DNA from: a virus
Length of the DNA: 29,018 bases
Direction: 5' to 3' (one strand)
Virus record (IMG/VR): IMGVR_UViG_3300008266_000399
Location: 1-29,018 of that record
Part shown: in pieces, positions 8,916 through 27,712 of the stretch
How the letters are laid out: every line of letters starts with the position of its first letter
Position numbering within the stretch: the first letter of the stretch is position 1
Notes under the pieces: model-generated
What the model was told of the DNA's origin: nothing
The model's input: the letters and a program-made list of their open reading frames with translations, nothing else
The model's database searches: none
Translations under genes and position numbers: made by a program

Positions 8916-9785
8916 TTATCCTGCTCCTACCCCCTCAATCCGAGCCTTAGCGATTTCCAGGTACTCAGCTTCACGCTCGATGCCTATGAACTGAAAGCCT
9001 TCAAGCTTGGCTGCTTTACCGGTGCTGCCACTTCCCATGAATGGGTCTAGGACAACCCCCCTTGGTGGAGTGACTAGGCGACAGAGGTAGCGCATTAGGT
9101 CGGTGGGTTTGACGGTGGGGTGGATGTTGCCCTCATCCCGATCCTTCTTGCTGGCTTTGGCGCAGTAGAAGAAGCGGGCTTGTTCGCCTAGGAACTCACC
9201 GCCATCGTGGATCAGGTTGGCGGGCCAGCGGCCGGAAACCTCGCCAAGTGCCGCCCTATTTGGTCCGCCGCCATAGGTGCCCCATGTGGCCGCTTGGTTA
9301 TTGATTCGGCCCAGCTTTTCATCCGTCCCCACCCTGCACCCATCCACATTAATCGCCCCAGTCCCATGCGCCAGCACGTTTGCGGCCACGGTTCCGGTGA
9401 ATGGCTTGCGGGCCACGGTGATTGGTTCTAGGGCGGGCTTTAGGGCTGTGCCCCAGCCTTGCCATTCATCTTTCAGGTTGTGCGACTTCGGAAACCCCGA
9501 CCCGTACACCCAAGCGATCATGTCGCGGATCTCAAACCCGGCGTCTTCGATGCGCACTGCCATGCGGTGCTGGGTGCGGGTTCCGGCAAACGCCAGCAGG
9601 TGGCCGCCGGGTTTGAGGACTCGCATGCACTCGGCCCATACTTCGGAGGCGGGCACGTCGTAGTCCCATTTCTTGCCCATGAAGCTGAGGCCATAGGGTG
9701 GGTCGGTGACTACTGAGTCCACGCTATTGTCGGGAAGGGTACGCAAGACTTCCAGGCAGTCGCCTAGCATCAATGTTGGTTCCAT
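8916..9785 (-). CDS. Beta-class DNA (N6-adenine) methyltransferase, orphan
   Basis: The 289-residue protein has catalytic motif IV DPPYG (residues 28-32) near the N-terminus. The SAM-binding motif I is near the C-terminus (DPFMGSGS, 247-254), preceded by HPTVKP (222-227). This order (IV before I) defines the beta class, and DPPY points to N6-adenine rather than N4-cytosine. It transfers a methyl group from SAM to a specific DNA sequence. No restriction enzyme is nearby, so it likely protects phage DNA from host restriction or alters regulation. Residues about 100-210 hold the target recognition region. AAGGAAAC precedes the ATG. It is the first gene of the leftward island, divergent from terL. 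Confidence 0.9.
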   Translation of the reverse strand: MEPTLMLGDCLEVLRTLPDNSVDSVVTDPPYGLSFMGKKWDYDVPASEVWAECMRVLKPGGHLLAFAGTRTQHRMAVRIEDAGFEIRDMIAWVYGSGFPKSHNLKDEWQGWGTALKPALEPITVARKPFTGTVAANVLAHGTGAINVDGCRVGTDEKLGRINNQAATWGTYGGGPNRAALGEVSGRWPANLIHDGGEFLGEQARFFYCAKASKKDRDEGNIHPTVKPTDLMRYLCRLVTPPRGVVLDPFMGSGSTGKAAKLEGFQFIGIEREAEYLEIAKARIEGVGAG

Positions 9786-9832: not shown

Positions 9833-11398
9833 ATGCAAACCCCCATCTACAAGCCAAAAGAAGAGCAGGAGCTGATGTCACTTATCTGGAGCCCCCAGAT
9901 CAAGGACAACCCATTGGCGTTTGTGATGTATGCGTTTCCATGGGGAGAGAAGGGCACGCCGCTGGAGCGGTTTAAGGGGCCTAGGAAGTGGCAAAGGGAG
10001 GTGCTTAGTGATATGGCGGAGCACATCAAGGCGAACAAGGCGCTGACGGATGCCAAGCAGCCTCACGAGAGTGAGGACGACATTGCGTACAAGGTGTTGA
10101 GGCAGGCGATCAGCTCGGGTCGGGGGATTGGCAAGTCGGCGTTGGTGTCGTGGATTGTGATTTGGATGTTGTCGACGCGGATAGGGTCCACGACGATCAT
10201 TTCGGCCAATAGTGAGCCGCAGCTTAGGTCGGTGACATGGGCTGAGATTACGAAGTGGTTAGCGATGGGGTTGAATTCGCATTGGTTTGAGATTAGTGCG
10301 ACGCGGGTTTTGCCTGCGAAGTGGTTAACGGAGCTGGTTGAGAAGGATTTGAAGAAGGGGACGAGGTATTGGGGTATTGAGGGTCGGTTGTGGAGTGCTG
10401 AGAACCCGGACGCGTACGCTGGGGTCCACAACTTTGATGGTGTGATGGTGATTTTTGATGAGGCGTCGGGTATTGATGATGCTATTTGGTCTGTGGCGAC
10501 GGGTTTTTTCACGGAAAACACGCCTAATCGGTTTTGGTTGGCGTTTTCGAATCCTCGGCGTAATGTGGGGTACTTTTTTGAGTGTTTTGGGGCGAAGAGG
10601 GACTTTTGGCGCACGAAGGTTATTGATGCGCGGTCGGTGGAGGGGACTGACAAGGCGGTTTATGAGCAGATCATTGAGGAATATGGTGAGGACTCGATTC
10701 AGGCGCGGGTGGAGGTGTATGGGGAGTTCCCTGCGGCTGGTGAGGATCAGTTCATTTCGCCTGTGGTGATTGATGAGGCTGCGAATAGGCCTAGGTACAA
10801 GGATCAGAGTGCGCCGATAGTGATTGGTGTGGATCCGGCGCGTGGGGGGATGGATTCAACTGTCATTGTGGTGAGGCAGGGTCGGGACATTGTGGAGATT
10901 CGTCGCTATAAGGGGGACGATACGATGGTGACGGTGGGGCATGTGATTGAGGTGATTGAGGAGTACAAGCCCACGATGGTGGTGATAGATGAGGGTGGGT
11001 TGGGGTATGGGGTGTTGGATAGGCTGACGGAGCAGAGGTACAAGGTCAGGGGCGTGAACTTTGGTTGGAAGGCTAAGAATCCGGTAATGTTTGGTAACAA
11101 ACGGGCGGAAATGTGGGGTGCAATGCGGGATTGGTTAAAAACGGCTTCAATACCGGTAGATAGGGCGTTGAGGTCTGATTTGCTGGGGCCGATGAAGAAG
11201 CCGGACTCGTCTGGGACGATATTTTTGGAAGGGAAGAAGGAGATGAAGGCCCGGGGATTGGCTTCTCCTGATGCGGCGGATGCTTTGGCGGTAACTTTTG
11301 CTTATCCTGTGGCAAGTAGGGAGTACAATCCTAAAAACGTGCGTCGAGTGAGTAGTTCTGGCCGTGGCGGCGTTACTAACTCTTGGATGGGATCTTAA
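9833..11398 (+). CDS. terL: Terminase large subunit (packaging ATPase/nuclease)
   Basis: The 521-residue protein has an adenine-binding-like WQREVL (53-58), Walker A SGRGIGKS (95-102) and Walker B VMVIFDEAS (204-212, catalytic Glu210). Coupling-motif-like FSNPRR is at 238-243. The RNase H-like nuclease domain carries acidic residues Asp334 (VDPARGG), Asp386 (VVIDEGG) and Asp480/Asp483 (SPDAADAL). It drives DNA into the prohead and cuts the concatemer. Both active sites look intact. No SD precedes the ATG at 9833; an ATG at 9875 with AGGAG is possible but would drop a conserved-looking N-terminus. The DNA here is unusually poor in C on the coding strand compared with the flanking genes. Confidence 0.95.
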   Translation: MQTPIYKPKEEQELMSLIWSPQIKDNPLAFVMYAFPWGEKGTPLERFKGPRKWQREVLSDMAEHIKANKALTDAKQPHESEDDIAYKVLRQAISSGRGIGKSALVSWIVIWMLSTRIGSTTIISANSEPQLRSVTWAEITKWLAMGLNSHWFEISATRVLPAKWLTELVEKDLKKGTRYWGIEGRLWSAENPDAYAGVHNFDGVMVIFDEASGIDDAIWSVATGFFTENTPNRFWLAFSNPRRNVGYFFECFGAKRDFWRTKVIDARSVEGTDKAVYEQIIEEYGEDSIQARVEVYGEFPAAGEDQFISPVVIDEAANRPRYKDQSAPIVIGVDPARGGMDSTVIVVRQGRDIVEIRRYKGDDTMVTVGHVIEVIEEYKPTMVVIDEGGLGYGVLDRLTEQRYKVRGVNFGWKAKNPVMFGNKRAEMWGAMRDWLKTASIPVDRALRSDLLGPMKKPDSSGTIFLEGKKEMKARGLASPDAADALAVTFAYPVASREYNPKNVRRVSSSGRGGVTNSWMGS

Positions 11399-11905: not shown

Positions 11906-14080
11906 ATGGGTGAACTGACTGCGGCGGGATCGGTTACCAATGAGAAGAAGACTAGCGGCAAGTCAGATTCTGACATTCTGGCTGCTGCTCGGGCTCGGCT
12001 TAACATGGCGATCTCGGCGTATTCAGAAAGCCGTGAAGACGAGCTGGACGACCTGAGGTTCTTTGCTGGCTCCCCTGATAATCATTGGCAGTGGCCGGCT
12101 GATGTGTTGGCGACTCGTGGGGCGGTGCAAGGTCAGACGATCAATGCTCGGCCTTGCCTGACGATGAACAAGCTGCCTCAGCATGTGCGTCAGGTAACGA
12201 ATGATCAGCGCCAGAATCGGCCATCAATCAAGGTCATTCCGGTGGATGATCAAGCCGATCCTGAGATGGCTGAGATTTATGACGGGCTGGTGCGTCATAT
12301 TGAGTACATCTCTGACGCTGATGTGGCGTATGACACTGCTTGTGAAAACCAGGTTGTGTATGGTGAGGGCTACATCCGGCTGTTGACGGAGTATTGCGAC
12401 GAGAACTCGTTTGACCAGGACATCAAGATTGGCCGGGTGAGGAATGGGTTCTCGGTGTACATGGATCCGACGATTCAGGATCCATGTGGGTCTGATGCCA
12501 AGTGGTGCTTCATTACTGAGGACATCCTCAAGGAAGATTACGAGCGCATGTTCCCGGATGCCAATCCTATCTCCACTTTGCAGACGTTGGGGGTGGGGGA
12601 TCAGTCGTTGTCTCAGTGGGTCAATGAGGACACTGTTCGGATTGCTGAGTACTTCTACATTGAGCATGAGAAGAAGACTCTGAACCTGTACCACGGGAAT
12701 GTGTCAGCATTTGCTGGCGATCCGCAAGATAAAGAGATGAAAGCGATGGGCATGAAGCCTATTCGCACCCGTCAGGTGGATGCACAGCGCGTGAAGTGGT
12801 GCAAGATCAACGGTTACGAGATTTTGGAAGAGCGTGACTGGGCGGGGAAGTACATCCCTGTGGTGCGCGTGGTTGGCAATGAATTTGAGGTGGATGGTCG
12901 GCTGTATGTGTCTGGCTTGGTACGTAACGCCAAGGATGCACAGCGGATGTACAACTACTGGGTGAGCCAAGAGGCCGAGATGTTGGCTTTGGCTCCCAAA
13001 GCTCCGTTTATTGGGTATGGTGGCCAGTTTGAGGGTTATGAGAACCAGTGGAAGACGGCCAACACGCAAAACTGGCCGTACTTGGAAGTCAACCCGGACG
13101 TTACGGACGGTCAGGGAGCGGTCTTGCCCCTTCCTCAACGTGCCCAGCCTCCAATGGCCCAGACAGGCCTTATTCAAGCCAAGATGGGGGCTTCGGAGGA
13201 CATTAAGTCCACAACGGGGCAATATGACGCGAGTTTGGGTGCCACGTCTAACGAGCGATCTGGACGGGCTATTTTGGCCCGTGAGAAGCAAGGCGATACG
13301 GGAACATATCACTTCGTTGACAACTACTCCCGTGCGGTCAGATACATCGGACGGCAGATCATTGATCTTGCACCAAAGATTTATGATACACAGCGAATTG
13401 CTCGGATTATTGGCATCGATGGTGAAACCAAGATGGCAAAGATTGATCCAACGCAGCCGATGCCTGTTAAGAAAATTCAGGACCAAAATGGGATTGTGAT
13501 CGAGAAGATCTACAACCCTGGCGTTGGCAAATATGATGTTTGCGTTACGACTGGTCCGAGTTACATGACCAAGCGCCAAGAGTCTATGGAGGCGATGAGC
13601 CAGATTCTTCAGGGCAATCCTGAGTTGTGGGCTGTGGCTGGCGACTTGTTTGTCAAAAACATGGATTGGCCTGGCGCGAATGAGATGGCCGAGCGATTGA
13701 AGAAGACGATTGATCCCAAACTGCTTTCGGATCAGGACGACCCTGCTTTGCAGGCTGCGAATCAGCAGATGGAGGCAATGGGCAAGGAGATGGAGCAGAT
13801 GCATCAGATGCTTCAGAACGTGTCCAAGTCTATGGAAGCGCGTGATATTGCAATCAAGGAGTTTGATTCTCAGGTGAAGGCGTACCAGGCCGAGACGCAG
13901 CGTATCAGTGCTGTGCAAGCGGGTATGTCACCTGAGCAAATTCAGGATATTGTGATGGGCACGATTGCTGCGGCGATGGACACTGGCGATTTGATTGGCC
14001 AGATGCCAAGCCGTGAGTCTATGGGCGAAGAGATGCCTGAGCAAATGCCACAACAAGGAATGCAAAATGAAGGCATGTGA
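11906..14080 (+). CDS. Portal protein, P22-type
   Basis: The 724-residue product matches P22-family portals in length and layout. The N-terminal half contains the RPCLTMNKLPQHVRQVTNDQ region, followed by the wing and stem domains. GATSNERSGRAILAREKQG is near residue 450, a conserved portal stretch. The C-terminus is a long helical barrel segment (about 615-680, many Met, Gln and Glu) ending in a Met/Gln-rich tail. Twelve copies form the channel vertex through which DNA is packaged and ejected, docking TerL first and tail accessory gp4 later. AAGGG lies 10 nt upstream. It overlaps the next gene by 14 nt. Confidence 0.9.
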   Translation: MGELTAAGSVTNEKKTSGKSDSDILAAARARLNMAISAYSESREDELDDLRFFAGSPDNHWQWPADVLATRGAVQGQTINARPCLTMNKLPQHVRQVTNDQRQNRPSIKVIPVDDQADPEMAEIYDGLVRHIEYISDADVAYDTACENQVVYGEGYIRLLTEYCDENSFDQDIKIGRVRNGFSVYMDPTIQDPCGSDAKWCFITEDILKEDYERMFPDANPISTLQTLGVGDQSLSQWVNEDTVRIAEYFYIEHEKKTLNLYHGNVSAFAGDPQDKEMKAMGMKPIRTRQVDAQRVKWCKINGYEILEERDWAGKYIPVVRVVGNEFEVDGRLYVSGLVRNAKDAQRMYNYWVSQEAEMLALAPKAPFIGYGGQFEGYENQWKTANTQNWPYLEVNPDVTDGQGAVLPLPQRAQPPMAQTGLIQAKMGASEDIKSTTGQYDASLGATSNERSGRAILAREKQGDTGTYHFVDNYSRAVRYIGRQIIDLAPKIYDTQRIARIIGIDGETKMAKIDPTQPMPVKKIQDQNGIVIEKIYNPGVGKYDVCVTTGPSYMTKRQESMEAMSQILQGNPELWAVAGDLFVKNMDWPGANEMAERLKKTIDPKLLSDQDDPALQAANQQMEAMGKEMEQMHQMLQNVSKSMEARDIAIKEFDSQVKAYQAETQRISAVQAGMSPEQIQDIVMGTIAAAMDTGDLIGQMPSRESMGEEMPEQMPQQGMQNEGM

Positions 14081-18058: not shown

Positions 18059-18118
18059 AATAAGTAGTAAACTAACCCCGTACTGGTGCGATTCATCAGG
18101 GAATCTAAGGATTCACAA

Positions 18119-18895
18119 ATGACCGAAGAAGTTCAAATCCCAGCGGAAGTGCCCGCGCCAGAACTGGAAGCTACGGCAGCGCCAGAGTCTGAAGTTATTC
18201 AGCCGGAAGAAAAGCCAGCGGAAGCCAGCAAGACCTTCACCCAAGAAGAGCTTGATGCGGCCATTGGTAAGAGGCTTGCTCGTGAGCAACGTAAGTGGGA
18301 AAGGGAACAAGCGCAGCGGGCAGTACAGTCGCAAGCGCCACAAACCCCCGCCAATCTTCCTTCAGCGGATCAGTTTGAATCAGTTGACGCATATGCCGAA
18401 GCACTGGCATTGCGTAAGGCTGAAGAACTGCTTCGTGACCGGGAAGCAAAGCGGCAACAGCAAGAAGTGCTGAGTGCTTATCACGACCGTGAAGAAGAGG
18501 TTCGATCTAAGTATGATGACTTTGAACAAGTCGCATACAACCCGAGTCTTCCAATCACCAACGTGATGGCTGAAGCAATTCAATCCTCTGACATTGGCCC
18601 TGAAGTAGCTTACTTCTTGGGAACCAATCCAAAGGAAGCTGAACGTATTTCCAAACTTACGCCTTATGTGCAAGCTAAGGAAATTGGGAAGATCGAAGCC
18701 AAGTTGGCTGATAATCCTCCCGTCAAGAAAACTTCAAGCGCACCAACGCCGATTACGCCTGTTACTGCCCGTACAACTGGCAGTCCTGCTTACGATACTA
18801 CTGATCCCCGCTCTACTAAAACTATGACGGCCAGCCAGTGGATTGAAGCTGAAAACATGCGTGAACGGAAAAGGTTGGAAGCACGAAACCGTTAA
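18119..18895 (+). CDS. Scaffolding protein
   Basis: The 258-residue product is acidic and Pro/Glu-rich in the first 40 residues (EVPAPELEATAAPESEV). TFTQEELDAAIGKRLAREQRKW follows, a recurrent motif of phage scaffolds. A long charged helix comes next (about 45-135). The C-terminus is basic and helical (SQWIEAENMRERKRLEARNR), as expected for the coat-binding end of a P22-type scaffold. It lies directly before the coat gene, the usual place. It guides procapsid assembly and then leaves. AAGGA is 8 nt before this ATG; a GTG further upstream in frame is not needed. Confidence 0.85.
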   Translation: MTEEVQIPAEVPAPELEATAAPESEVIQPEEKPAEASKTFTQEELDAAIGKRLAREQRKWEREQAQRAVQSQAPQTPANLPSADQFESVDAYAEALALRKAEELLRDREAKRQQQEVLSAYHDREEEVRSKYDDFEQVAYNPSLPITNVMAEAIQSSDIGPEVAYFLGTNPKEAERISKLTPYVQAKEIGKIEAKLADNPPVKKTSSAPTPITPVTARTTGSPAYDTTDPRSTKTMTASQWIEAENMRERKRLEARNR

Positions 18896-18922: not shown

Positions 18923-19019
18923 GTGTCCAATTCAATCTTAACGATCGACATGATCACCCGGAAAGCTCTCCAAATCCTGGAGAACAATCTGGTTCTTACC
19001 CGTAACGTTAACCGTCAGT
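18923..19019 (+). CDS. Major capsid (coat) protein, exon 1
   Basis: GTG start after AAGGAA (18910-18915). The exon codes for MSNSILTIDMITRKALQILE and then NNLVLTRNVNRQ, plus one base (T) of codon 33. This N-terminus is typical of P22-type coat proteins. Without splicing the next codon is TAA (19019-19021), so no coat protein could be made. The last seven bases (CGTCAGT) pair with the intron guide sequence. Joined to exon 2 it completes Tyr33 in a QYDDSFA context. Confidence 0.9.
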
Positions 19020-19754
19020 AAACATCAAGTCTAGCTGACGCTAAACCCCGTTAATTGCTGGAAACCCCTTAAGCATCATGAACCACAACGTAGCCGGAAA
19101 CAGCAAGCGTGAAGGTCTGAAAATCGTGATGATTGGGCAATCAGCAGCCAAGCGTCTTATCATTAACAGTGATATGATGAAGGTTCAACGACTAGCCGAA
19201 AGGCGTAGCTCCCAAGTGGGAGCGAAATGCGGGGCAAGCATGAAGCGACCAATTAGCGAACGATTTTTTGAAAAAGTAAGCATTAACAAGAACGGGTGTC
19301 ATGAGTGGACTGGGTGCATCATGCCTAATGGCTATGGTCAGTTCCACAAAGACGGAAAGACTGCTTACGCGCACCGCGTAGCCTATGAATTGGCTAATGG
19401 TGTTGCAACAGACTTTGTTTTGCACAAGTGCGATAACCGCAAGTGTGTCAATCCGGGACATTTGTTCTCTGGGACTTTTGACGACAATATGGCCGACATG
19501 GTTGCCAAAAAACGTCAAGCGCATGGCGAAAAAAATAGCCATGCGAAGTTAAACGCTGAAAAAGTAAAAGCGATTCGTAGCGAAGTTGGCCTGCACCGAG
19601 AAATCGGCGCTAAGTACGGCGTAACAGCATCATTGGTTTCAATGATCCGTTCAGGCCGAATTTGGCGGAATGTTTGAAGATATAGTCTGACCCCTAGTGA
19701 AAGCTAGGGCCTCGAGAGAGGGATGTGGAGTAACGATCCGCATCAAACATTGTG
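19020..19754 (+). ncRNA. Group I intron (probably subgroup IA) interrupting the coat gene
   Basis: P1 pairs exon CGTCAGT (19013-19019) with GCTGACG (19034-19040), ending in the U-G wobble at the 5' splice site. P3: CCCCG (19046-19050) with CGGGG (19230-19234). P4/P5 lie near AATTGCTGGAAA (P element) and AATCAGCAGCC (Q). P7: GACTA (19190-19194) with TAGTC (19683-19687) in the R and S elements (AAGATATAGTC). P7.1 is GCC-GAAA-GGC and P7.2 GCTCCC-AAGT-GGGAGC (19208-19223), features of subgroup IA. P9 hairpins lie at 19692-19709, 19710-19721 (GAGA loop) and 19722-19744. The terminal G is 19754. It should self-splice. The HNH gene fills the P8 region. Confidence 0.92.
19240..19677 (+). CDS. HNH homing endonuclease in the intron (145 aa)
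   Basis: The product starts MKRPISERFFEKVSINKNGC. It carries AYAHRVAYE (44-50), VLHKCDNRKC (60-69) and VNPGHLFSG (70-78), which together form an HNH_3-type zinc-supported nuclease core. The C-terminal part (103-145: KLNAEKVKAIRSE...YGVTASLVSMIRSG) is an HTH/NUMOD-like DNA-binding segment. It would cut intronless coat genes and spread the intron. The start is the ATG just after the P3 strand: GGGG, its likely SD, is part of P3, so a folded intron should hide it. An in-frame ATG at 19078 would translate the ribozyme core and is rejected. Confidence 0.9.
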   Translation: MKRPISERFFEKVSINKNGCHEWTGCIMPNGYGQFHKDGKTAYAHRVAYELANGVATDFVLHKCDNRKCVNPGHLFSGTFDDNMADMVAKKRQAHGEKNSHAKLNAEKVKAIRSEVGLHREIGAKYGVTASLVSMIRSGRIWRNV

Positions 19755-20863
19755 ATGACGATAGTTTCGCAGTTGAAGGTGCCAAGATCGGTTCCACCCT
19801 GCGTATTCGCCTGCCTGACCGCGCTTTGGTGACGGACGGTGCCGCTCTGCAAGTTCAGGACGACAACGAGCAATCCACGACCTTGACTGTTGCTTCGCAA
19901 AAGCACATTGGCGTGAACTTCACCTCTGCCGAACTCACCATGCAATTGGATGACTTCGCAGAACGTGTTCTCAAGCCTCGCGTTAGCCAACTGGCTGCTT
20001 CAATTGATGCTGATGTTGCCAATGCTTATCGTGATATCTATTCCTCCGTTGGCACTCCTGGCACGACCCCTGGCGCCTCTTTGGTTTTGCTGCAAGCCCA
20101 GCAAAAGCTGAACGAAAACGCTGCCGGTATGAGCCCCCGTTATGCCACCGTCAACCCAGCCGCCAACGCTAACCTGGTTGAAGGCATGAAGGGTCTGTTC
20201 AATCCTACCGACACCATCAGCAAGCAGTTCAAGAACGGCATGATGGGCACTGGCGTGTTGGGCTTTGACGAGATCAACATGTCTCAGTCTATCAAGGTGT
20301 TTACCACTGGAACACGCACCAACGGCACCACTTCGGCTGCTGTTACTGCGCAAGGCGCGACTTCCATTCCCCTGACCGGCTTGGGGGCCAATGCCACTAT
20401 TGCTCAAGGTGAAGTGTTTACCGTTGCTGGTTGTTTTGCAGTCAACCCACAAACCCGTGAATCAACCGGCTCGCTGCTACAATTTGTGGTAACTGCTCCC
20501 GCGACCGCAACGGCTGGCGGTGCTGCTACCGTGTCGGTTAGCCCCGCCATTTACACGGCCTCCAACGCGCTGGCTACTGTGGATACTTTCCCAGCAAACG
20601 GCGCGACTGTAACCTTCGTTGGGGGTGCCTCCGCTGTTTACCCGCAGAACCTGGTGTATCACAAAGATGCGATCACCTTTGCTACGGCCGATCTGTTGAT
20701 GCCTCAAGGTGTTGACATGGCCTCGCGTCAAGTTCACAACGGCATCTCGATGCGTATTGTTCGTCAATACGACATCAACAATGACCGTATGCCTTGCCGT
20801 ATCGACGTTTTGTACGGCTATAAGGTCATTCGTCCTGCGATGGCTTGCCGTCTCTGGGGCTAA
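19755..20863 (+). CDS. Major capsid (coat) protein, exon 2
   Basis: Begins with AT, completing Tyr33, then DDSFAVEGAKIGSTLRIRLP. The spliced protein is 401 residues (97 + 1109 nt = 402 codons with stop). It contains FTSAELTMQLDDFAERVLKP, an extended body, and a C-terminus with MRIVRQYDINNDRMPCRIDV and GYKVIRP, as in P22-type coats with an HK97-like fold. A Thr/Ala/Gly-rich insertion (about 235-345) may be a surface I-domain. It builds the capsid shell on the scaffold. A terminator-like hairpin follows. An unspliced reading would begin upstream inside the intron and is wrong. Confidence 0.92.
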
Positions 20864-22273: not shown

Positions 22274-23791
22274 GTGAAAACCCCCATCCTTGGATCAGCC
22301 TATGTAGCAAGATCGGTCAATGCGGCAGATAACCGCATGATCAATCTGTACCCGGAGGTCGTCCCAGAAGGTGGCAAAGAAGCTGGATTCTTGCAACGCG
22401 CTCCAGGGTTGCGAACATTGGCTTTTGTAGGTACTGGCCCTATCCGTGGCTTATGGTCTTATGGCGGCAGTTTGTATGCTGTCTCTGGTACGCAGTTGTA
22501 CAAGATCAGTACGTCCTATGTGCCTACATTGATCGGCTCTGTATCGGGCTCTGGCCCTGTGAGCATGGCAGACAATGGGACTCAGCTTTTTATCGCTTGC
22601 AATGGGCCAAGCTACATCTACAACGTCAATACCAACGTCTTCGCACAGATCACCGACCCTGACTTTCCAGGTGCTGTGACGGTTGGATATTTGGATGGGT
22701 ACTTTGTATTCACCCAGCCCAATTCACAGCTTGTATGGGTCACCAGCCTGCTAGATGGCACCGCCGTTGATCCGTTGGACTTTGCCAGTGCTGAGGGGTC
22801 TCCTGACGGCTTGGTGTCCATGATCATTGACCACCGAGAAGTTTGGCTGTTTGGCTCCAACTCGGTTGAGGTCTGGTACAACTCTGGCGGTGCTGATTTT
22901 CCACTGGCGCGTATTCAAGGCGCTTTCAACGAGATTGGCTGTGCTGCCACCTACTCCGTTGCCAAGCTGGACAACGGTTTGTTCTGGCTTGCTGCTGATG
23001 CCCGTGGGCAAGGTATGGTGTACCGGGCCAACGGATACACCGGCCAGCGGATCAGCACTCACGCTGTTGAGTGGCAGATTCAGCAGTACGGCACCATCTC
23101 TGATGCCATTGCCTACACCTACCAACAAGACGGCCATTCCTTTTATGTGCTGACGTTCCCAACGGCAGGCAAGACATGGGTGTATGACGTATCCACGCAA
23201 GCCTGGCATGAGCGGGCCGGGTTTGATAGTGGCTCGTTCACCAGGCACCGTAGCAACTGCCAAGCGGCGTTTAACAATGAGATCATTGTTGGCGACTTTG
23301 AGACTGCCGACATCTATGCGTTTGACATGGAAGTGTTCGCAGACGGCGGCAACGTGCAGAAGTGGCTTCGCTCGTGGCGAGCTATCCCTACTGGACAGAA
23401 CACCCTAAAGCGTACTGTTCACCACAGCTTGCAACTTGATTGCGAGACAGGCGCGTTCTTCGATCCTCAGCTTAACAATGGACTGTTAACGGAGGCGTTT
23501 GAGTTGCTCACCGCTGAAGATGGCTCTTACTTAGTGCAAGAGGTAGACCCTCTATCACTTAGCGGCGAACCCCAAGTGATGCTCCGATGGTCAGACGACG
23601 GCGGCCATACTTGGTCAAATGAGCACTGGACAGGCACGGGTGCTTATGGGGAGTACAAGAAACGTGTGTACTGGCGCCGTCTTGGCATGACTGTGAAGCT
23701 GCGAGACCGGGTGTATGAGATATCAGGCACCGATCCTGTGAAGGTGATGATTATGGGCGCAGAGCTATCAGCGGCAGGCACAAATGCCTAA
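22274..23791 (+). CDS. Tail accessory factor gp10-like (packaged DNA stabilisation)
   Basis: The 505-residue product starts at GTG directly after the gp4 stop. The N-terminus (MKTPILGSAYVARSVNAADN, then RMINLYPEV) and the beta-propeller-like repeats (LYAVSGTQLYKIS, MVYRANGYTGQRIS) match the P22 gp10 family. Homologous gp10 proteins form the tail hub that binds gp4 and the tailspikes. The C-terminus (VMLRWSDDGGHTWSNEHW, then GAYGEYKKRVYWRRLG) is strongly typical. It overlaps the next gene by 8 nt. Confidence 0.88.
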   Translation: MKTPILGSAYVARSVNAADNRMINLYPEVVPEGGKEAGFLQRAPGLRTLAFVGTGPIRGLWSYGGSLYAVSGTQLYKISTSYVPTLIGSVSGSGPVSMADNGTQLFIACNGPSYIYNVNTNVFAQITDPDFPGAVTVGYLDGYFVFTQPNSQLVWVTSLLDGTAVDPLDFASAEGSPDGLVSMIIDHREVWLFGSNSVEVWYNSGGADFPLARIQGAFNEIGCAATYSVAKLDNGLFWLAADARGQGMVYRANGYTGQRISTHAVEWQIQQYGTISDAIAYTYQQDGHSFYVLTFPTAGKTWVYDVSTQAWHERAGFDSGSFTRHRSNCQAAFNNEIIVGDFETADIYAFDMEVFADGGNVQKWLRSWRAIPTGQNTLKRTVHHSLQLDCETGAFFDPQLNNGLLTEAFELLTAEDGSYLVQEVDPLSLSGEPQVMLRWSDDGGHTWSNEHWTGTGAYGEYKKRVYWRRLGMTVKLRDRVYEISGTDPVKVMIMGAELSAAGTNA

Positions 23792-26947: not shown

Positions 26948-27712
26948 ATGTGGGCAGCACTTGGTGGCGCGCTTTTAGGCGGCCTGATGGGAAAAGACTC
27001 AAGCAGGAAAGCGGCTAACACGCAGGCTGATTCTGCTCGTGAGTCGGCGGCTTTGCAGAAGGAAATGTTTGACAAGAACATTGAGCTACAGGCTCCTTTC
27101 AGGGAGGCTGGACTTTCTGCTCAGAACAAACTGCTTCAATATCTCGGCCTTCAATCCGGTCCTGACTCCGGCAAATACACCCGTGACTTTGGAATGCAAG
27201 ACTTCCAGCAAGACCCCGGCTATGCCTTTCGCATGAGCGAGGGCCTGAAGGCATTGGATCGTCAGGCGGCTGCGCGAGGTGGTTTGATCTCTGGGGCTGC
27301 TTTGAAGGCGGCAACGCGCTATGGCCAAGATAAGGCTTCTGATGAGTACATGAACGCCTTTAACCGCTACCAGACCAATCGAGCTAACCAACTGAACCCG
27401 TTGCAATCGTTGATGGGTGCTGGACAAACATCTGCCAACACGCTTGGCACTGCTGGCCAGAACTACGCTAATCAAGCTGGTGAGGCTTACATGGGCGCTG
27501 GTGCTGCTCGTGCTTCTGGCTATATGGGCGGTGCAAATGCGTTGGCTGGAGCCCTTAACCAAGGCATCAATGCTTATCAATACAATCAAATGATGAGGCC
27601 AGCTATTCCAGGCAGAAACCCATTTGGGGGCATGTTTAGCTCCGGCGCTGGGTCACAAGGGTTCGGCGGTGGCTCTGTGCAAGGAAACGCAGATTATCAA
27701 TACGACCTCTAA
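26948..27712 (+). CDS. Ejection / DNA transfer protein, P22 gp7-like
   Basis: The 254-residue product starts MWAALGGALLGGLMGKDSSR. This Gly-rich hydrophobic N-terminus is usual for injected proteins. FREAGLSAQNKLLQYLGLQS and QQDPGYAFRMSEGLKALDRQ follow, then a Gly/Ala/Asn-rich tail; AARGGLISGAALKA is conserved in this family. Such proteins leave the capsid first and build a path across the envelope. GGGGG precedes the ATG at about the right distance. The next gene follows two bases after its stop. Confidence 0.75.
   Translation: MWAALGGALLGGLMGKDSSRKAANTQADSARESAALQKEMFDKNIELQAPFREAGLSAQNKLLQYLGLQSGPDSGKYTRDFGMQDFQQDPGYAFRMSEGLKALDRQAAARGGLISGAALKAATRYGQDKASDEYMNAFNRYQTNRANQLNPLQSLMGAGQTSANTLGTAGQNYANQAGEAYMGAGAARASGYMGGANALAGALNQGINAYQYNQMMRPAIPGRNPFGGMFSSGAGSQGFGGGSVQGNADYQYDL

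Follow-up and report, generated by a model that had tools for sequence, protein, structure and literature searches.

The window, i.e., the whole 29,018-base stretch of DNA analysed here, is an IMG/VR record of an uncultured virus of bacteria. It harbors a P22-type coat protein gene interrupted by a group I intron, which carries in turn a homing endonuclease gene of the HNH type. The features of the interrupted gene and its surroundings are as follows:

9833-11398: terminase gene, upstream of the coat gene
11906-14080: portal gene, upstream of the coat gene
18086-18895: scaffold gene, directly before the coat gene
18923..19019, plus strand: exon 1 of the coat gene, with a GTG start, 32 codons and the first base of codon 33 (from translation and alignment of intronless and intron-bearing relatives)
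19013..19040, plus strand: P1, exon CGUCAGU paired with the guide GCUGACG (19034-19040), with a terminal U-G at the 5' splice site
19020..19754, plus strand: group I intron of 735 nt that begins with A after ...CAGT and ends in G (omega-G) (from Rfam RF00028 and boundaries kept in relatives)
19044..19237, plus strand: 5' part of the catalytic core, comprising the P3 5' strand, P4, P5, P5a/b, P6, P6a, the P7 5' strand, P7.1, P7.2 and the P3 3' strand (GCGGGG) (from Rfam alignment and covariation)
19240..19677, plus strand: homing endonuclease gene of the HNH type (145 aa plus stop), which occupies the P8 loop (PF13392 HNH_3, phrog_1872)
19676..19754, plus strand: 3' part of the core, comprising J8/7, the P7 3' strand (UAGUC), P9, P9.1, P9.2 and the 3' splice site (from sequence, Rfam and covariation)
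19755..20863, plus strand: exon 2, coding for coat residues 33-401 plus stop (PF11651 over spliced residues 3-401)
22274-23791: gene of a P22-type head-closure protein, downstream of the coat gene
26948-27712: gene of a DNA ejection protein, downstream of the coat gene

The neighboring genes fit a P22-type coat locus. The window also contains a DNA methyltransferase gene (8916-9785; phrog_67, E 5.3e-84) on the minus strand, opposite to the structural genes.

As the original prediction had it, exon 1 ends with CGTCAGT at 19019 and an in-frame TAA follows; this stop codon spans the 5' splice site, the exon contributing its last base and the intron its first two. With 19019 joined to 19755, a single frame results, as was also predicted; it contains the Y-D-D-S-F motif, read as NRQYDDSF in a spliced coding sequence of 1206 nt (401 codons plus stop). 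Residues 3-401 of the spliced protein match PF11651 (P22_CoatProtein) in a profile search with E 8.6e-39 and 133.9 bits against a cut-off of 24, and the product also matches phrog_283 (major head protein, E 6.8e-76). In the homolog alignment suggested as a check, 80 intronless IMG/VR loci with 79-86% amino acid identity align without interruption over coat residues 1-401. At the position of the intron, the nearest intronless relatives read ...AACCGTCARTAYGACGAY..., the sequence of the intronless site being CGTCAGTATGACGAT; hence, both intron boundaries are fixed. A 3' splice after 19757, which would keep the frame at the cost of one Asp, was ruled out: since the intronless relatives read RQYDDS, 19754|19755 is the correct 3' site. 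The expectation that a standard gene caller would truncate the starts of both the coat protein and the intron ORF holds only in part; the mechanically called ORF of exon 2 does begin within the intron, at GTG 19697.

The covariance-model search advised for the predicted group I intron returned RF00028 over 18985-19709, a full-length model match of 84.9 bits (gathering score 50; E 1.6e-20); no other RNA family matched anywhere in the window. The core features of a group I intron, i.e., the P3/P7 pseudoknot, P4-P6 and P8, are found in the Rfam alignment together with covariation, and its splice sites display P1 with the terminal U-G and the intron-final G; the perfect CGUCAGU/GCUGACG pairing, noted originally, is plainly seen in the sequence. 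The trait of subgroup IA, P7.1/P7.2 between the P7 5' and P3 3' strands, is present and partly covarying, which supports placement at the level of the subgroup.

Further evidence came from 23 distinct cores, aligned after removal of the endonuclease gene and compared with the structure (P1, P3-P9.2) drawn on the window. Out of 1829 cells, 1583 were paired (shuffle mean 1443, with none of 500 shuffles as high), and two-sided changes occurred at 39 pairs (shuffle mean 23.4). When the partners were slid by 1-3 columns, at most 748 cells were paired, a comparison biased in favor of the drawn structure, since it was drawn on one of the aligned sequences. The bulk of the covariation resides in P9 (138/138 cells paired, 47 two-sided changes), P8 (97/115 cells, 22 two-sided changes), P5a and P7.2. 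P1 and P7 are nearly invariant, so covariation speaks neither for nor against these two helices; P9.2 (69/155 cells) and P7.2 (82/138 cells) are paired less consistently, partly due to length differences. P3, P7, P7.1, P7.2 and the three P9 hairpins of the original drawing, as well as P8, can be drawn as described, and covariation backs the overall structure.

The presence of an HNH gene in the intron agrees with matches to PF13392 HNH_3 (E 1.3e-7; 31.6 bits vs. the curated cut-off of 24.8) and phrog_1872. In most relatives, too, the P8 loop is occupied by an HNH_3 gene. In the window, the start codon of the gene sits in the 5' strand of P8 and its stop codon, TGA, at the P8 3' strand/J8-7; the P8 strands, start codon included, covary (e.g., AGCAT/ATGTT, AGATAT/ATATCT). 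The mechanically called ORF, which reaches back to 19078 (199 aa), is probably over-extended, and the gene probably begins at the conserved ATG/GTG at 19240 (145 aa), judging from two observations: in the relatives inspected, ATG or GTG closely follows the P3 3' strand GCGGGG, and in one of them, L340, the upstream frame is closed, opening only from intron nucleotide 186. A variant of the mobile-intron explanation, in which translation from ATG 19078 runs through the ribozyme core and yields a longer HNH protein of 199 aa, would account for the frame from 19078 being open in most close relatives. It is improbable, given the late opening in L340, the maintenance of an RTG (ATG or GTG) just past P3, the lack of an evident ribosome-binding stretch upstream of 19078, and family matches starting near residue 38-55. 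With the start placed at 19240, the ribosome-binding stretch likely lies in P3. The best relative of the HNH protein found in bacterial genomes was just 44% identical, with no near bacterial copy; a search of solved structures for HNH_3 and endonuclease VII-like proteins gave no informative match for either.

The same coat site is occupied in many other phages. A search with the HNH protein retrieved nine contigs with a coat-gene intron (L083-L091) and a tenth, L092, whose coat is just 42% identical. A pattern comprising the 5' splice site and the guide found 37 contigs, with coat exon 1 preceding in all; with a less strict pattern, the total came to 67 other IMG/VR contigs with an intron at this site (a manual count that includes a few loci stored cut, showing coat exon 1 alone), and their full-length coat identity to the window is 29-81%. 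The insertion invariably follows an Arg-Gln pair, and the readable cases retain both the exon frame and the RQ-Y junction. Among the 80 intronless loci, the 5' site reads CGTCAGT in 28 and CGCCAGT in 36, and a CGTCAAT allele also occurs among intronless relatives. The search pattern requires CGTCAGT, so introns at other codon variants would escape it; introns sought in CGCCAGT alleles gave none in a coat gene among 120 matches listed, a list full of chance matches. Compared with isolate phages, the intron DNA showed core similarity alone to introns elsewhere, none covering 80% of the query among the records listed.

Two hallmarks of a homing intron, empty sites in relatives and an intron more similar than its exons, are found here. 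Between the window and L083, the intron is 97.8% identical, compared with 81% for exon 1, 79% for the coat coding sequence and 82% for the upstream scaffold region. Synonymous divergence (dS) climbs with distance from the insertion site, being 0.13 in the HNH gene, 0.21 in codons 1-50 of exon 2, 0.65 in codons 51-100, 0.69 in codons 101-200 and 1.12 in the rest. Judging from this comparison, the gradient is the pattern expected if sequence next to the intron is copied along with it during repair. Codons 1-50 of exon 2 do code for a conserved part of the protein as well, but the synonymous gradient argues against that as the whole reason. The HNH protein is under purifying selection, since its dN is 0.006 (dN/dS about 0.05). 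The coat tree joins the window to the intronless L003-L005, its nearest rows (88% SH-aLRT), and puts the near-identical introns into a separate group, beside the intronless L082. Overall, intron mobility is well supported by the sequence comparisons.

A ribozyme that is intact but has lost its mobility, with the HNH gene as a passenger and the scatter produced by vertical inheritance and many losses, would be in keeping with the clustering of many intron-bearing coats on the tree: presence of the intron requires at least 7 state changes (4 forced by well-supported branches) vs. 34.8 in shuffles, so inheritance is partly vertical. Still, near-identical introns in coats of 79% identity, the rising synonymous gradient and the strong purifying selection on the HNH protein render loss of mobility very unlikely.

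It can be held with high confidence that a mobile phage intron of the IA type (td-like, with P7.1/P7.2 and P9-P9.2) resides in a P22-type coat gene after conserved Arg-Gln codons; the sequence data support its fold, boundaries and frame restoration, the empty sites, horizontal movement with a co-converted flank and purifying selection on the HNH gene. For the window intron we infer splicing, endonuclease cutting and translational coupling of the following kind. Once the pre-mRNA has folded, guanosine would attack at the U-G pair, after 19019. The freed exon 1 would then attack after omega-G 19754, restoring the coat frame. A ribosome on unspliced exon 1 would halt at the splice-spanning TAA and so be kept out of the ribozyme. 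Since the start codon lies in P8 and the ribosome-binding stretch likely in P3, production of the HNH protein would probably require an unfolded core, translation presumably competing with folding. During co-infection, the protein may cut or nick, near CGTCAG^T, the coat genes of phages that lack the intron; repair would then copy the intron and flanking coat sequence into the cut gene. The opposite notion, an unspliced insert that breaks the coat gene or leaves it made as a fragment from the 388-codon frame open from the intron GTG 19697, is hardly credible in view of compensatory changes keeping the ribozyme in many phages, the exon frame and RQ-Y junction maintained in readable cases, and coat residues 1-33, which are conserved coat sequence.

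Phage group IA introns with endonuclease genes are represented by the T4 td and SPO1 types. The window intron resembles them in the core motifs, P7.1/P7.2, the P9 hairpins and the ORF in a peripheral loop; their hosts are nucleotide-metabolism or replication genes, from which phage introns are usually cited, whereas here the essential gene of a virion protein, the coat protein, is the recurrent target. The coat gene was originally regarded as an unusual host, and it is indeed an uncommon one; it is not a new one, as PMC3706429 describes a group I intron within the capsid gene of mycobacteriophage LittleE, where splicing was confirmed by experiment, and cites one in lactococcal phage Tuc2009. 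LittleE is similar in having a group I intron plus an endonuclease gene in the major capsid gene and close relatives with intronless alleles (PMC3706429). It differs in the phage and the coat, and in the endonuclease gene, which points leftward, opposite to the capsid gene, and is said to be related to I-CreI; the passages on LittleE mention no large same-site family (PMC3706429). A group I intron in the RNA polymerase gene of PhiPA3 contains an interfering HNH endonuclease (PMC11620839), and the shared aspect is that the endonuclease could act on intronless competitors; the host gene is another one, and the interference belongs to PhiPA3 (PMC11620839). A literature search, with most subscription journals outside its range, found no report of a group I intron in a P22-type coat gene and no paper combining P22 coat protein, intron and homing endonuclease; capsid hosts are unmentioned in PMC11878797. 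Thus, the kind of element is known, and the P22-type coat host and the abundance of introns there seem not to have been described previously.

The site also occurs in other states. The introns of L166 (320 nt) and L352 (347 nt) are devoid of an endonuclease gene (Rfam 83.3 and 78.6 bits, respectively). Those of L177, L185, L323, L334, L362 and L384 feature a different, Cys-rich endonuclease; all four scanned of these six matched phrog_2255 and endonuclease VII families, and the gene lies, by reading of the sequence, between the P6 strands (L6). The combination of a window-type core with an endonuclease VII-like gene in L185 suggests endonuclease exchange. A single collection thus holds alleles that are empty, that bear the endonuclease, that have swapped it or that lack it, which makes the homing cycle testable by comparison. 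Tentatively, it is conceivable, if slightly less so than its opposite, that the P22-type coat site has long served as an intron address in very different phages, with one ribozyme lineage loaded in turn with two unrelated endonucleases, HNH_3 (in L8) and an endonuclease VII-like one (in L6), or with none, and with HNH translation and splicing mutually exclusive because the start codon and the ribosome site lie in P8 and P3.

Several minor observations concern compact and multiple introns. L353 (minus strand) has, at the coat site of the window, a very short intron (about 200 nt) that goes undetected by Rfam at E 0.01; therefore, compact members may be widely missed. In the public record MW202674.1 (16569-18096, i.e., L163 3001-4528), the annotation divides a P22-type coat gene into two CDS, with an insert of roughly 200 nt between them. 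This insert, located at a different position, is similar to the L353 intron, which is compact and ORF-less (GATTGACTTGGAA, GAACGACTAAGTGAGAG, GCGATAGTCTGA), but had no Rfam match at E 0.1. Automatic calls split such coat genes or give false N-termini, cf. the two "P22 coat protein" entries of this record. Finally, one P22-type coat gene, L367 2262-4651 (IMGVR_UViG_3300037827_000128), with a frameshift near residue 108 that is perhaps an assembly error, seems to hold three group I introns. The first, ORF-less, is at the coat site of the window (59.7 bits); the second, also ORF-less, follows a 38-nt exon ending in AAGATCGGT (69.3 bits); the third (27.9 bits) lies near the C-terminus, is cut by the contig end and combines a perfect P1 with an endonuclease VII-like gene.
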